Positions 4,541-10,264 of a stretch of 10,264 nucleotides of DNA are shown piece by piece. Both the position numbers and the translations under genes were made by a program. The number at the start of each line of letters is the position of its first letter. Position 1 is the first letter of the stretch. The DNA comes from Planctomycetales bacterium. Its GTDB lineage: Bacteria > Planctomycetota > Planctomycetia > Pirellulales > UBA7805. The notes below the pieces were generated by a model. The model worked only from the letters and a program-made list of their open reading frames with translations. It was not told where the DNA came from and did no database searches. The DNA lies in assembly GCA_011772275.1 (NCBI GenBank), contig WVZU01000216.1:1-10264 (forward strand), given 5' to 3'.

Positions 4541-5422
4541 ATGAATGTTGTGGGCAAAATCTTTGTGTTTCTGGTGTTTGTGATGAGCGTGGTGTTCAGC
4601 GCGTTTTCCGTGATGGTTTATGCCACGCACCAGAACTGGAGAGACGAGATTTTGCGAACCGAACCAGGAGCGGATGGCAAGCCGGGCTGGAAAAAGCAAC
4701 TGGAATTCCAGGAAGATCAGAAAAAGCAGGCCCAAGCGGAACTTAATGACCTGAGAGACGAACTCAAAGCAGAACGTGTCGCCAAGCGGCAACAGGTTGC
4801 CAAGCTGGAGCAGGAAAAGGAACGGCTACTGGCAGAAACCGGCAACCTGGCAAAACAAAACGAAGAGCAAGAAAAAAATCTGACCAAGGCCCTGGACGAC
4901 ATCAAAAACGCCGATGAGCTGTTGGAAAATGCGCGGACAGAAGGGAACGACTTGCGTGAGCAGATTCGCAAAGCGCGGGAAGAGATTGCGGGCAAGTACG
5001 ATACGCTGCTGGAAGTGCGCGAGCAATTGCATCAAAATCTGGGACAGATTGCCCTGCTGGAAGAACGCAACAAGCAGCTAAACGAGGCCGTCGGTCAGGC
5101 GGAGGCCTGGCTGAAAAAGTTCGGTGTGAATAAGGAAACCCCCCTGGACTCGATCGAGCCGCTGGTCGAAGGGCGGGTGACACGAGTCAAAAAGGTCACC
5201 GATGACGTTTTTGTGGAAGTTACCATTGGCAGTGACGATGGGCTCCGCAAAGGCCATCAGCTGGAGGTATACCGCGGCGGGACTTACGTGGGGCGAATCG
5301 ACATTATCAAAGCCTATCCCGACCGTGCCGTCGGCCGGGTCGACCGCCAATACCAGCAGATGCTGATCCAGGCTCGCGATCGAGTCAAAGCGCGGCGGAG
5401 CCTGACGCTCACCGCCGGCTGA
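4541..5422 (+). CDS. Single-pass membrane coiled-coil protein with MreC-reminiscent C-terminal domain
   Basis: I do not recognise this 293-residue protein as a named gene. The N-terminus has one membrane segment (about 5-28). A long, highly charged Glu/Lys/Gln-rich coiled coil follows (about 50-192), then a compact C-terminal domain (207-290) with the pattern VEVTIGSDDGLRKGHQLEVY and GGTYVGRID. This topology, and the G-x-x-DGL-x-KG turn followed by a GRI strand, recall MreC, the periplasmic scaffold linking MreB to PBP2. A similar turn also occurs in other small beta domains such as the FlgT C-terminus, so MreC homology is not proven. Start choice is firm: AAGGAG (4527-4532) lies 8 nt before the ATG. 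It is the first gene after the promoter at 4351 and heads a cluster containing mreB and a PBP2-type gene, which supports a shape-related role. Confidence 0.85.
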   Translation: MNVVGKIFVFLVFVMSVVFSAFSVMVYATHQNWRDEILRTEPGADGKPGWKKQLEFQEDQKKQAQAELNDLRDELKAERVAKRQQVAKLEQEKERLLAETGNLAKQNEEQEKNLTKALDDIKNADELLENARTEGNDLREQIRKAREEIAGKYDTLLEVREQLHQNLGQIALLEERNKQLNEAVGQAEAWLKKFGVNKETPLDSIEPLVEGRVTRVKKVTDDVFVEVTIGSDDGLRKGHQLEVYRGGTYVGRIDIIKAYPDRAVGRVDRQYQQMLIQARDRVKARRSLTLTAG

Positions 5423-5999: not shown

Positions 6000-7064
6000 A
6001 TGCTCAACCGACTCTTCGGTCTCCTGACCACCGATCTGGCGATCGACCTGGGCACGGCCAATACGTTGATCAGCCTGGCCGGCGATGGCGTCGTGCTGAA
6101 CGAGCCGTCCGTGGTGGCCATTGAACGTTCCGGACGCGTGCTGGCCGACGGTTGCGCCGTCGGCCACCTCGCTCGACAAATGCTGGGACGGGCCCCCGAG
6201 TCGATCCGCGTGGTCCGGCCGTTAAGTGAGGGCGTGATCCGGGACTTTCAGCTGTGCGAAACGATGTTGCGATATTTCATGCGGAAAGCTCAGCGGCAGA
6301 ACTGGGGCGTCGGCCCTCGCGTGATCGTGACCGTGCCTGGCTGCATCACGCCGGTGGAGAAACGAGCAGTATACAACAGCGCGCTCCGCGCCGGCGCTCG
6401 ACAGGTCTACCTGCTGCTGGAGAGCAAGGCGGCGGCCATCGGCGCGGGACTGCCGATCGCCGAACCGGTGGCCAACATGGTCTGCGACATCGGCGGCGGT
6501 ACGACGGAGGTGGCGGTGATGAGCTTAGGGGACGTGGTCGCCAGCCATTCGATCCGGGTCGGTGGTGACCAGATGGACGCGGCCATCATCGACTATTTGA
6601 AAAAGCACTGCCAGCTGCGGATTGGGACCAGTGGAGCGGAGCGGTTGCGGATCGAACTGGGCAGCGCTTATCCCCTGGAAGAAGAAAAAACGGACGAAGT
6701 TTCCGGGGTCGACGTGATCAGCGGCCTGCCGCGGAAGGCGCAGATCACCAGCGAACAAGTCCGCGCCGCACTGGGGGACCCGTTGGCCCACATCATCGAC
6801 GCCATCAAGGAGACGATCGACGGCTGCCAACCCGACCTGGCCGCCGACCTGGTGGAAAACGGGCTGGTCCTGACCGGCGGCGGTGCGCTGCTGAGGCGCT
6901 TGGACCGCTTTGTCGGCGAGCAGACGGGTTTGCCGTGTCGGGTCTCCCGCCATGCCCTGGAGGATGTGGCCCGCGGCAGCCAAATCTGCCTGGAACAGTT
7001 TGGCCGGTGGCGTGGTTTTCTGGAATCCAGCGACGACGATGTCCCCAGCCGAACCGCCTATTGA
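6000..7064 (+). CDS. mreB: Rod shape-determining protein MreB (actin family)
   Basis: MreB is the bacterial actin homologue. It polymerises with ATP under the inner membrane and organises lateral wall synthesis. The 354-residue protein, near the usual 345, opens with a short amphipathic stretch (1-9) typical of membrane-binding MreB. It then has phosphate-1 AIDLGTANTLI (14-24), VLNEPSVVAI (32-41), MLGRAPESI (61-69), RPLSEGVIRDF (73-83), VPGCITPVEKRAV (112-124), phosphate-2 CDIGGGTTEVAVMS (162-175), RVGGDQMDAAI (186-196) and the adenosine motif LTGGGALLRRLDR (291-303). One oddity: the usual EEPMAAAIG reads LESKAAAIG (140-148), losing the first Glu and the Pro. The ribosome-binding site is weak. 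The last 26 bp overlap the next gene, a PBP2-type transpeptidase, MreB's usual functional partner. Whether this is the only MreB of the organism cannot be told here. Confidence 0.93.
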   Translation: MLNRLFGLLTTDLAIDLGTANTLISLAGDGVVLNEPSVVAIERSGRVLADGCAVGHLARQMLGRAPESIRVVRPLSEGVIRDFQLCETMLRYFMRKAQRQNWGVGPRVIVTVPGCITPVEKRAVYNSALRAGARQVYLLLESKAAAIGAGLPIAEPVANMVCDIGGGTTEVAVMSLGDVVASHSIRVGGDQMDAAIIDYLKKHCQLRIGTSGAERLRIELGSAYPLEEEKTDEVSGVDVISGLPRKAQITSEQVRAALGDPLAHIIDAIKETIDGCQPDLAADLVENGLVLTGGGALLRRLDRFVGEQTGLPCRVSRHALEDVARGSQICLEQFGRWRGFLESSDDDVPSRTAY

Positions 7065-9222
7065 CTGGCATCGCGTCGTCCCCGACGACCGTCTGCCTTT
7101 AGCTGCCGACTCCCGGCAACGCATCGCCTGGTTGTGTTTGGCCTTTGTGGGACTGGCCGGGCTCGTACTGGCCCGCTGCCTCTGGATCCACATCGACAGC
7201 GGGCCCGCCTACCGCGCAGCGGCCCTCCGTCCCAGCGAGATCCGTCAAGCGATCCCGGCCCGGCGGGGAACGATCCTTGACCGGCGGGGAGTGGTTTTGG
7301 CCGAGGATCGCCCCGTCGACGTGCTGACACTGCACTACCGCTGGCTGCAACAGCCGCCCGATCCCGGCTGGCTTAAAAGGCAGGCCCAGCAAAGCTTGTC
7401 TCCCTTGCGGCGCCGCGACCCGGCGGCCGTCGCCGAGGCCACAAAACGGGTGGCGGGCGAGATCCGACAGCTTCACCGGCGGCTGGCACGCGAGTGTGGG
7501 TTATCCGACCAGCAGTGGGAAAGCCGTCGACGTCATGTCCAGCAGGGTGTCGAGCGGACTGCCGCGGCAGTCAACCGGCGGCGGCGGACACGATACCAGC
7601 AAGACGTGGCCCCGACCGCTGGGCCCCACCGCGATGAGGGCCGCTGGTCGACGCTGCTGACCGACGCGATCAAGGCCCTCTTCACGCCCCCGGAACCGCT
7701 GCCGCCCCCCGCCGTGATCATCCGGGAAGAGACGCAGCATCACGTGATGTACCGCGGCGTCGACGTGGCGTGGAAAGAGCGAATTGAGCGATCGCCCGAA
7801 AAATACCCCGGCGTCCTCGTTCAGCAGCGGCGAATCCGGACCTATCCCCACGGTTCACTGGCCGCCCACCTGATCGGCTACGTGTCCCCCCAGGATCCGC
7901 CGGAGGCGAGCGGGCGGGCGGGTATTGAATTGGCAGGCCAAAGGCAGCTGGCCGGCCGGCCGGGCAGTGCCCTCCAGCAGGCCACCCCCGGCGGAGAGAC
8001 CGCCGAACCAATTCTGGAAACGGCCGCCATCGACGGCCGCGATCTGGTGACGACGCTCGATTGGCGGTTGCAGGCGGTCGCCGAACGATTGTTGGACGAT
8101 GCCTGCCGGCGGCGCGATATCCGCCAGCGCCGCCGCCACGCGTTGGGACAACCTCCGCTGCCGGCCGGCGGCAGTATGATCGTGGTCGATGTTTTTCGCG
8201 GAGAGATCCTGGCGATGGCCAGCGGGCCGCGGTTCGATCCGAACGACTTCGCCCAGGGAGATACCCCCAACGTCCGCCGCTGGCTGGCCGAACCGAATCG
8301 CGCCATGTTCGACCGGTCGATCCAGATGGCCATCCCGCCCGGCTCGGTCTTCAAGCCGGCGATGGCGATCGCGATGCTGGAGGCGGCCGACCTGGACCCC
8401 GCCGCTCCGTTGATTTGCCGCGGCTACCTGCAGACGCCCGACCGGCAGCGGTGCATGGTCTTCCGTCGCTACGGCATCGGACACGGCCCCACCCACCTGG
8501 CCGATGCCCTGGCGCAAAGTTGTAACGTCTATTTCTTCCACTATGCCGGCAAGATGGCTCCGGAAGCACTCACCCATTGGGCCATGCGATTCGGCTTCGG
8601 CCAGCGGACGGGTATCGATCTTCCGGCCGAGTCCGCGGCGAATCTGCCCACGCCTGGGGACGTCTTGGCGGGCCATCGTGCGGGCTGGCAAGAGGCCGAT
8701 TCCCAGGCCCTGGCGATCGGCCAGGGTCGCCTGACCGCCACCCCCCTGCAAATCGTGCGGATGATGGCGGCCCTTGCCAACGGGGGTTCCTTGATCGTCC
8801 CGCGAGTGACCCGCGCGGAGGTCGCCTTGCGAGCCCTTCCGGACCTGCCGGCGACTTTGCAGGGGATGCGGATTCCCGGCTTGCGAGCCGCCAGTTTGGA
8901 GGCGGTGCGGGAGGGCCTCTTGCGGGTGGTAGACCACCCGGCCGGGACCGCGCATCGCACCGTCTTCATCGACGGGTTGCCCGTGGCGGGTAAGACGGGC
9001 ACCGCGGAGGCCGGACCGGGGCAGGAAGACCATGCCTGGTTTGCCGGCTACGCCCCGGCCGACGATCCCCGCATCGCCCTGGTGGTGGTGCTGGAACATG
9101 CCGGGGATGGATCGGTCTCCGCCGGCCCGGCCGCTCGCCAATTGCTGCTGACCATCCGTCGCTTGGGCTACGTGGGCAAGCCGGTCACCCACCTTTCCCG
9201 GACGGAAGCAGGCAAAAAATAA
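7039..9222 (+). CDS. mrdA: Penicillin-binding protein 2, class B peptidoglycan transpeptidase
   Basis: This is a class B PBP: a membrane-anchored D,D-transpeptidase that cross-links peptidoglycan in the periplasm, most like the elongation enzyme PBP2. From the ATG at 7039 it has 727 residues (E. coli PBP2 has 633). One membrane segment lies at about 28-50, then the dimerisation-domain motif RRGTILDRRGVVLAED (75-90), YPHGSLAAHLIGYV (269-282) and GIELAGQRQL (295-304). The transpeptidase domain (about 335-705) has all three motifs: S436-V-F-K439, S494-C-N496 and KTGT (652-655). About 75 residues at 112-187 form an Arg/Gln-rich, probably helical insert that explains much of the extra length. The ATG overlaps mreB by 26 bp, suggesting translational coupling. 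A longer frame opens from 6910, but its 43 extra residues only shadow mreB. FtsI/PBP3 is the alternative; the MreB neighbour favours PBP2. Confidence 0.92.
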   Translation: MSPAEPPIDWHRVVPDDRLPLAADSRQRIAWLCLAFVGLAGLVLARCLWIHIDSGPAYRAAALRPSEIRQAIPARRGTILDRRGVVLAEDRPVDVLTLHYRWLQQPPDPGWLKRQAQQSLSPLRRRDPAAVAEATKRVAGEIRQLHRRLARECGLSDQQWESRRRHVQQGVERTAAAVNRRRRTRYQQDVAPTAGPHRDEGRWSTLLTDAIKALFTPPEPLPPPAVIIREETQHHVMYRGVDVAWKERIERSPEKYPGVLVQQRRIRTYPHGSLAAHLIGYVSPQDPPEASGRAGIELAGQRQLAGRPGSALQQATPGGETAEPILETAAIDGRDLVTTLDWRLQAVAERLLDDACRRRDIRQRRRHALGQPPLPAGGSMIVVDVFRGEILAMASGPRFDPNDFAQGDTPNVRRWLAEPNRAMFDRSIQMAIPPGSVFKPAMAIAMLEAADLDPAAPLICRGYLQTPDRQRCMVFRRYGIGHGPTHLADALAQSCNVYFFHYAGKMAPEALTHWAMRFGFGQRTGIDLPAESAANLPTPGDVLAGHRAGWQEADSQALAIGQGRLTATPLQIVRMMAALANGGSLIVPRVTRAEVALRALPDLPATLQGMRIPGLRAASLEAVREGLLRVVDHPAGTAHRTVFIDGLPVAGKTGTAEAGPGQEDHAWFAGYAPADDPRIALVVVLEHAGDGSVSAGPAARQLLLTIRRLGYVGKPVTHLSRTEAGKK

Positions 9223-9254
9223 ACGGCCCACTCGCCAAAGCGAGCGGGCCGTTT
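9221..9254. terminator. Bidirectional terminator between convergent genes
   Basis: The arm 9223-9235 (ACGGCCC, A, CTCGC) pairs with 9240-9252 (GCGAG, C, GGGCCGT) around the loop CAAA, with one A-C mismatch. On the plus strand the stem runs into four T (9252-9255). On the minus strand it is followed by a T-rich stretch, the complement of the A run at 9213-9223. It overlaps the last two bases of the PBP stop codon and lies about 55 bp beyond the end of the convergent minus-strand gene, so it probably ends both transcripts. Confidence 0.8.
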
Positions 9255-9268
9255 TCACGACGTTTTCA

Positions 9269-9290
9269 CTTGTTCGCCGCAGCGAACAAG
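9269..9290. other. Perfect 9-bp hairpin downstream of the Cys-rich gene
   Basis: CTTGTTCGC (9269-9277) pairs with GCGAACAAG (9282-9290) around the loop CGCA. It lies 17 bp beyond the stop codon of the minus-strand gene and before the shared terminator. No T run follows on either strand, so it is more likely an mRNA 3'-end stabilising structure than a second terminator. Confidence 0.5.
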
Positions 9291-9307
9291 GAACACACCG
9301 CGCGTGA

Positions 9308-9862
9308 TTAACCACATCCGCAAGTCGCGGCAACACCGCACGTCGCGGCAGCGCCACAGCCGCAATGCGACCGGTGGCAGCAACGCACCTTGCGGCACTT
9401 CACTTTGCAGCACTTGGGCTTGCAGCAGCGAGGCTTGCAGCACTTGGGCTTGCAGCATCGGCTACGGCACTTCTTCGGACGGCAGCAGCTCGCTGCCTCA
9501 CATCCACAACTCGGCTCGGCAGCACAACCGCAACCGTGATCGGCAGCCGCACCGCAATCAGCGGCCACGCCGCAGCTGTCACACGAGTCGCAACCGCCAC
9601 AGCGATGACGATGGCAACGGACTTTCTTGCAGCAGCGGACCTTGCAGCAGCGGGTGCGCTTGGGCCGGCAGCAGCGGTGCGATCGAGCTTCGCAACCACA
9701 GCCAGCGGCGACGCCGCAATCGGCAGCCACACCACAATCGGCGGCTACACCACAGTCGCCGAAGCTGGTAAACAGGAAGTTGGCAGCTTCTGCTTCGGTG
9801 TTGCCCGCAGCAACGACCAGGCCGGCTACCAACAGCACGGAAAACAACGCGTGCAGTTTCAT
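9308..9862 (-). CDS. Secreted, extremely cysteine-rich repeat protein, function unknown
   Basis: I do not recognise this 184-residue protein as a named family. The ATG at 9862 is preceded at 8 nt by AAGGAG (complement of 9871-9876), so the start is firm. An in-frame GTG at 9871 abuts the ribosome-binding site and is unlikely. Residues 1-26 form a signal peptide (MKLH, hydrophobic core, then TEAEA before ANFLF). The rest contains 40 cysteines in about 158 residues. Two repeat types alternate: small-residue blocks with DCGVAA (36-53, 96-107, 172-184) and basic blocks with CCRPK, CCKPK and CCKPR (64-88 and 126-162). It stands alone on the minus strand, convergent with the PBP gene. The composition recalls metallothioneins or keratin-associated proteins, or disulfide-linked planctomycete wall proteins; these are analogies, not homology. 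Export makes a cross-linked envelope or surface role my preferred guess. Confidence 0.8.
   Translation of the reverse strand: MKLHALFSVLLVAGLVVAAGNTEAEAANFLFTSFGDCGVAADCGVAADCGVAAGCGCEARSHRCCRPKRTRCCKVRCCKKVRCHRHRCGGCDSCDSCGVAADCGAAADHGCGCAAEPSCGCEAASCCRPKKCRSRCCKPKCCKPRCCKPKCCKVKCRKVRCCHRSHCGCGAAATCGVAATCGCG
9405..9459 (-). repeat. 15-bp tandem repeats coding the CCKPK units
   Basis: Three 15-bp units (9405-9419, 9420-9434, 9435-9449) plus part of a fourth follow one another. The first and third are identical (TTGCAGCACTTGGGC on the plus strand). They lie inside the cysteine-rich gene and encode its CC-Lys/Arg-Pro-Lys/Arg pentapeptides, so they are coding repeats rather than a separate element. 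Confidence 0.85.
9704..9757 (-). repeat. 18-bp tandem repeats coding the DCGVAA units
   Basis: Three consecutive 18-bp units encode DCGVAA at residues 36-53 of the cysteine-rich protein, with a few silent differences between units. Related copies occur further along the gene at residues 96-107. They point to growth of the gene by slippage or unequal exchange. Confidence 0.8.
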
Positions 9863-10264
9863 ATCGTTCACTCCTTACTCGACCAAGCCAATTTCTAACG
9901 TGCGATGACGCTGAACGCGACGAGCGTTCCAATTGGACTTGTCGAAACACAAACCGTAAAAACCAATACTACCGGTTAATCACTAGCCAGTTACCACGAT
10001 GGCGCCTGCTGGTGGTAAGCTCGCCGTTGTCGTAATCGTCGACCCCGCTCGCAAGGTTAAGCTGATCCAAATAAATTTACATCGCTATTTCGGAAACGCG
10101 GCCAGTCGTAGCCGAATTGAGGAAAAAACACGTCAACCGGTTGCGCCTGCCCCACGCCCTGGTCGATCTGTGCTTGCCAGGCTGGTTGTGCCGGTCTTGC
10201 CGAACGCCTCCGACGATTGCAAACGCTGACCGTGGTTCCACCCGCCGGCGGCTGCCTGCCGGAA
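9863..10264. other. Upstream region of the Cys-rich gene, no gene seen
   Basis: The Shine-Dalgarno of the minus-strand gene is at 9871-9876. Further out lie the dyad at 9913-9929, the palindrome CCAATTGG (9929-9936) and A/T-rich patches around 9945-9980 and 10068-10085 that could contain its promoter, but no convincing -35/-10 pair could be fixed on either strand. A plus-strand open frame at 9999-10229 has no ribosome-binding site or recognisable product. I see no gene here. Confidence 0.55.
9913..9929 (-). promoter_or_regulatory. Dyad in the 5' region of the Cys-rich gene
   Basis: GAACGC (9913-9918) and GCGTTC (9924-9929) form a perfect 6-bp inverted repeat around 5 nt, followed at once by the palindrome CCAATTGG (9929-9936). 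It lies about 50 bp upstream of the start codon. It could be an operator or an mRNA hairpin; only the symmetry is seen. Confidence 0.35.

Follow-up and report, generated by a model that had tools for sequence, protein, structure and literature searches.

What a planctomycete might do with a small exported protein in which about one residue in four is cysteine is the question raised by one gene in the window, as we call the whole stretch of 10,264 nucleotides that was analyzed. A sequence-only reading had described this gene as encoding an exported protein with 40 cysteines in two alternating block types. Its coordinates, the cysteine count, and both block types were confirmed, and the gene, for which no strand had been given, lies on the minus strand. 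The features of the locus are as follows.

9308 to 9862, minus strand: coding sequence of the 184-residue cysteine-rich protein (ATG at 9862, stop codon at 9308 to 9310), for which relatives were found
9871 to 9876, minus strand: ribosome-binding site AAGGAG, 8 nucleotides 5' of the ATG
9785 to 9862, minus strand: predicted signal peptide, residues 1 to 26 (cut between NTEAEA and ANF), based on the sequence and an AlphaFold2 helix
9689 to 9757, minus strand: first small/acidic block, residues 36 to 58 (three DCGVAA units, then GCGCE)
9599 to 9685, minus strand: first basic block, residues 60 to 88
9488 to 9598, minus strand: second small/acidic block, residues 89 to 125
9365 to 9487, minus strand: second basic block, residues 126 to 166 (CCRPK, CCKPK, CCKPR, CCKPK, and CCKVK units)
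9311 to 9364, minus strand: terminal small, uncharged block, residues 167 to 184
9221 to 9254, minus strand: terminator-like hairpin of 15 pairs with a T-rich tail, between the cysteine-rich gene and a convergent PBP2-like gene

Several features suggest that the frame is a real gene: it has a ribosome-binding site, its repeat copies show synonymous codon drift, the same genome holds a paralogue, and relatives are many. The drift is seen in DCGVAA, each of whose three copies is encoded by a different DNA sequence, with the differences falling at silent positions, which indicates that the peptide and not the DNA is conserved. Open frames on the plus strand overlap the gene and are also present in relatives, as is to be expected from repeats of this kind; we take the minus frame to be the coding one because of the ribosome-binding site, the signal peptide, and the fusion to YTV repeats in relatives described below. 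A scan of positions 9000 to 10264 detected three terminator-like sites, against 1.5 expected, and no promoter-like site. A run of N lies beyond the right end of the window, from about position 10265, in the frame 10217 to 11455 of this locus (L050), so that the sequence 5' of the gene can be read only in part.

The 40 cysteines (10 TGT and 30 TGC codons) amount to 22% of the whole chain. After residue 26, the signal-peptide cut predicted by script and by eye, they are found among 158 residues, in agreement with the earlier estimate of about one in four. The predicted signal peptide is further supported by the AlphaFold2 model, in which residues 4 to 30 form a helix and the mean pLDDT over the first 20 residues is 84. 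This helix is all that was modeled with confidence (mean pLDDT for the protein, 44.7; low confidence at residues 37 to 184), although a model built on 14 sequences says little. The low values fit disorder, which would also be compatible with metal binding. The blocks listed above follow the small-basic-small-basic-small order proposed initially. Our script reads the chain as four alternating blocks and not five, since the last one is uncharged. Charge is strongly clustered (z, 11.1), and none of 200 shuffles that kept the cysteines in place reached the observed value.

Searches of the complete Pfam and NCBIfam libraries with the window protein returned no match at an E value of ≤1, a threshold at which the HMMER filters discard most matches above 0.1. 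At this threshold, there was thus no hit to a metallothionein model in either library and, in Pfam, none to the YTV repeat (PF07639) or to a keratin-associated protein family. The PDB likewise contained no relative, keratin-associated proteins included: the best sequence match had an E value of 0.55, which is chance level, and a profile search gave none. No match was found in the plasmid and phage collections, and seven relatives (L051, L037, L039, L046, L111, L123, and L129) had none in Pfam. The view that the protein belongs to no family that can be named therefore stands, and homologues in a metallothionein family, set beforehand as a refutation, were not found in these libraries. A description of the family was not seen among the papers listed by literature searches; Mahajan 2020 (Genome Biol Evol) or Hieu 2008 may mention it. 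As far as profile matches can define it, the family is unnamed in the libraries searched and widespread in its order.

The extent of the family emerged from successive profiles. A single-sequence search with the window protein retrieved a paralogue in its own genome (E value, 4.2e-13) and matches in the genomes G019 (1.1e-6) and G035 (3.3e-4). The paralogue, encoded on another contig, is longer (251 residues), contains repeated basic stretches, and ends in the tail PPTPKPDASA. Proteins of 161 and 212 residues with the same block order are encoded in two genomes from another family within the order. An alignment of these four proteins (A1) had matches in 95 of the 396 genomes of the order at an E value of ≤1e-3. 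Named genomes scanned with the window sequence alone contained no relative; A1 then gave 13 loci, including those of Rhodopirellula baltica (L046), Botrimarina hoheduenensis, and Lacipirellula limnantheis. In total, 104 distinct candidate proteins were extracted, and 66 of them were used for a second profile (A2), which the window gene, itself one of its rows, matches with an E value of 3.2e-15. At an E value of ≤1e-5, A2 matched 266 of the 396 genomes of the order and 193 of the 252 good assemblies, counts that may err in both directions, since a cysteine-rich profile may catch other cysteine-rich proteins, YTV proteins included, and only 8 candidates were scored per genome, with part of the matches inspected. 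The conservation in related genomes that had been set beforehand as a test is thus present. In a sample of the class, 63 of 248 genomes had a match, 6 of them outside the order; in a sample of the phylum, the 3 matching genomes among 246 were all from the order, with none outside the class. Two of the proteins from other orders of the class (L256 and L257) have a hydrophobic N-terminal stretch and cysteine clusters around basic stretches, and such sparse relatives suggest that the module may predate the order or have spread. The window protein shares with the Pirellulales-type proteins assembled here its match to A2 as well as a predicted signal peptide followed by alternating acidic and basic cysteine-rich blocks. 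Its composition had been considered unusual for bacteria; this may be right in general but does not hold within this order.

The alternating architecture is common among the relatives. The order acidic-basic-acidic-basic-acidic was observed in 70 of 94 relatives and in 1,920 of 9,400 cysteine-preserving shuffles (20%); the relatives had been gathered by similarity and are therefore not independent of one another. By a simpler measure, charge clustering is not uniform: 48 of 98 relatives lay above every one of their 200 shuffles (median z, 3.55), and one (L053) lay below all of them. The units themselves vary. By a loose pattern, 55 of 94 relatives have, where the window protein has CCKPK runs, an amphipathic basic segment resembling CGLLxKLFxKKHxxCC, and three or more units of CC followed by K, R, or H occur in 13 of 94, including the window protein. 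Summed over the 98 relatives, there were 735 CC, 742 CxC, 184 CxxC, and 856 CxxxC pairs. Of the 98 mature chains, 56 have an even and 42 an odd cysteine count, a ratio near chance that speaks against strictly internal pairing and in favor of interchain links or metal binding.

Two further architectural observations concern individual groups. A conserved PPxPxxDxSA-like C-terminal tail was detected by pattern in 14 of 94 relatives, mostly followed by a basic stretch (L046, L051, L129, L248, L249, and others). We considered this tail as a general sorting signal and rejected it, because the six places where it was found, in five genomes, all coincide with A1 or A2 matches or with L046; the tail therefore looks specific to these cysteine-rich proteins. 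A 614-residue frame (L247, on contig 8 of genome G147; G147:C8) contains several cysteine-flanked units of the GLLxKLLxKK type followed by a long proline-rich region and, judged by these motifs, is a longer architecture built on similar units.

The main lead to a function comes from proteins in which the same module is joined to YTV repeats. The matches included four YTV-repeat proteins, two retrieved with A1 (L138 and L141) and two with A2 (L245 and L246). Three of these were long proteins with many YTV stretches, namely, L141 (605 residues; nine stretches; PF07639 E value, 1.3e-84), L245 (590 residues; nine; 6.8e-82), and L246 (582 residues; eight; 2.9e-83). After its YTV stretches, L245 ends in CCEPACGCGHKGGLLKKLFGGCKKSCCDVAPACGCDAEPACGCEVAAPSCGC, which corresponds to the stand-alone module. 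Compared with stand-alone members, the last 90 residues of L141, L245, and L246 scored 86, 95, and 81 bits, respectively, and the maxima of 60 cysteine-preserving shuffles of each tail were 73, 64, and 60 bits. These strong cases are located in genomes that also hold stand-alone members (G378, G136, and G159). Weaker versions of the module were seen in L211 (52 bits versus a shuffle maximum of 48) and in L210, which is barely above its shuffles (38.5 versus 38.1). Others, the YTV protein L158 of the window's own genome among them, have only a short CGC tail, which in L158 still beats its 60 shuffles (49 versus 41 bits). Altogether, 9 of 17 YTV tails beat all of their shuffles and 8 did not, in a nonrandom set whose three strong members were tested because the profile had matched them; most YTV tails inspected contained no module. 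The own genome encodes L158 as a 658-residue protein (L158:2429-4402, contig C59) and has a more divergent YTV-type frame (L159, contig C158).

The YTV domain was found in 383 of the 396 genomes of the order, in 5 of 99 genomes of the phylum sample, all of this class, and in none of 14 control genomes. At least 117 of the 396 genomes of the order have the YTV domain but no A2 match at an E value of ≤1e-5, meaning either that YTV walls do without the module in these strains or that relatives escape the search; the free module is hence no fixed partner of the YTV proteins. Its occurrence both as a free protein and at the end of YTV proteins indicates that the two most likely share the same layer. 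Like the window protein, the YTV proteins are cysteine rich, predicted to be exported, and, in our samples, limited to Planctomycetia, and three of them end in a module of the window type. The window protein differs from them in that it has no YTV repeat, has roughly one-half to one-fifth the length of those examined, and is approximately twice as cysteine rich as L158 (76 cysteines in 658 residues).

The gene neighborhood lends no support to a role in the wall. All other genes of the window are on the plus strand and encode, according to Pfam, a class-I glutamine amidotransferase, MoeA, an apolipoprotein N-acyltransferase, MreB, and a PBP2-like transpeptidase with a PBP dimerization domain, which converges with the cysteine-rich gene, as well as a coiled-coil-like protein and a 72-residue protein, both without a Pfam match above the cutoff. 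A link to mreB and PBP2 based on this proximity was dropped, since the locus does not cluster with others through these genes: of the 25 largest shared-neighbor clusters, a single one (7 of 98 loci) includes it, by way of the frame that holds the run of N, and the largest cluster among the other loci comprises 24 of 98. In the segment from 6000 to 9222, the frame for MreB (354 residues) is followed by the overlapping PBP2-like frame, leaving no room for mreC or mreD between them, and upstream of MreB lies the coiled-coil-like frame (4541 to 5422), with no Pfam family above its cutoff. The draft assembly of the source genome comprises 437 contigs and is 85% complete. The genome encodes a VKOR-type disulfide oxidant (E value, 1.3e-18), an enzyme detected in 9 of 20 genomes, its own among them. 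The corresponding frame (L251, contig C368) extends into a short stretch of N; the frame beside it contains a DsbA-like CPTCPQC motif.

A protein wall has previously been described in planctomycetes. One paper describes YTV proteins as the major constituents of Gemmata walls boiled in 10% SDS (PMC5287468), and a passage on a Tuwongella wall preparation gives cysteine-rich YTV proteins as the two highest-scoring proteins, followed by a large lipoprotein (PMC8567305). For R. baltica, a paper citing Liesack 1986 mentions a proteinaceous sacculus that contains disulfide bonds (PMC2754498). Against this background, we consider it moderately probable that the window protein is a structural protein of the planctomycete wall that is cross-linked by disulfides and accompanies the YTV proteins. 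The presence of the module at the C terminus of some YTV proteins is the principal reason; the signal-peptide-like N terminus, the lack of a confident fold beyond it, the CC, CxC, and CxxxC spacings, and the alternating blocks are also in its favor. The protein would be exported by means of its predicted signal peptide, and its cysteines would be oxidized outside the membrane, possibly by the VKOR-type enzyme; other oxidants would be needed elsewhere, as VKOR was detected in only 9 of the 20 genomes. Disulfides could then form within and between chains, blocks of opposite charge may pair and set neighboring chains side by side in register, and the protein would act as a matrix that cross-links or fills the YTV layer, a role suggested by the fusions. 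Such a protein layer would add to peptidoglycan and not substitute it, as suggested by the MreB and PBP2-like proteins encoded in the window and by a report of peptidoglycan in planctomycetes (PMC4432640). The earlier proposal of an envelope material thereby gains indirect support from the module on some YTV proteins and from the frequency of relatives in the order. A more elaborate, hair-like wall in planctomycetes of this order is unlikely on present grounds but worth stating: long YTV proteins would be its fibers, small polyampholyte cysteine-rich proteins its disulfide matrix, charge blocks would set the register, and some species would have fused both components.

Several known systems invite comparison, and some of them suggest other functions. 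Keratin-associated and cornification proteins are rich in cysteine, carry CC-x-P-x repeats, and are presumed to form a disulfide matrix. The window protein has the same kind of repeats and a presumed matrix role; it differs in being bacterial, in its alternating charged blocks, and in having no Pfam match. We infer both the disulfide cross-linking and this resemblance, as did the sequence-only reading. The chlamydial OmcA and OmcB are disulfide-linked cysteine-rich outer-membrane proteins from the same superphylum as planctomycetes; they would parallel the window protein in function only and are set apart by its lack of a Pfam or NCBIfam match. Metallothioneins are small proteins with CC and CxC clusters, and a periplasmic protein of this kind, whose cysteines would bind copper, zinc, or a similar metal as thiolate clusters outside the cytoplasm, is an improbable yet serious alternative. 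Both of these metallothionein-like spacings are present in the window protein, which lacks a confident fold, and together with CxxC and CxxxC they are abundant in the 98 relatives, which frequently (42 of 98) have an odd number of cysteines. However, the predicted signal peptide conflicts with the cytoplasmic location of metallothioneins, the chain of 184 residues is unlike theirs, no metallothionein model in Pfam or NCBIfam was matched, and the stand-alone proteins scanned had no family match at all. The fusion of the module to YTV proteins and the absence of a metal gene among the seven window neighbors, as judged by Pfam, also argue against metal binding.

The fusion bears in the same way on two other possibilities. 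Predicted export and a composition suited to cross-linking would also be expected of an outer-surface or extracellular material, such as a sheath, holdfast, stalk, or pit component, and genomes often have two or more matches, with or without the conserved PPxPxxDxSA-like tail (14 of 94); we nevertheless consider this improbable, more so than metal binding, because the fusion points to the layer that the YTV proteins occupy. A cationic peptide-like effector, serving as an antimicrobial or competition factor, would account for export, cysteine richness, the basic blocks, and the amphipathic GLLxKLF-type stretch that a loose pattern finds in 55 of 94 relatives. Since acidic blocks offset the basic ones and some YTV proteins carry the module at their end, we give this explanation very little credence.

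A structural role in the wall remains the reading that we prefer. The old question of the planctomycete protein wall gains with this family a concrete further candidate beside the YTV proteins, and the relatives in R. baltica, L. limnantheis, and B. hoheduenensis make it directly testable. If the protein does belong to the wall, it would represent a bacterial parallel to the keratin-associated proteins.
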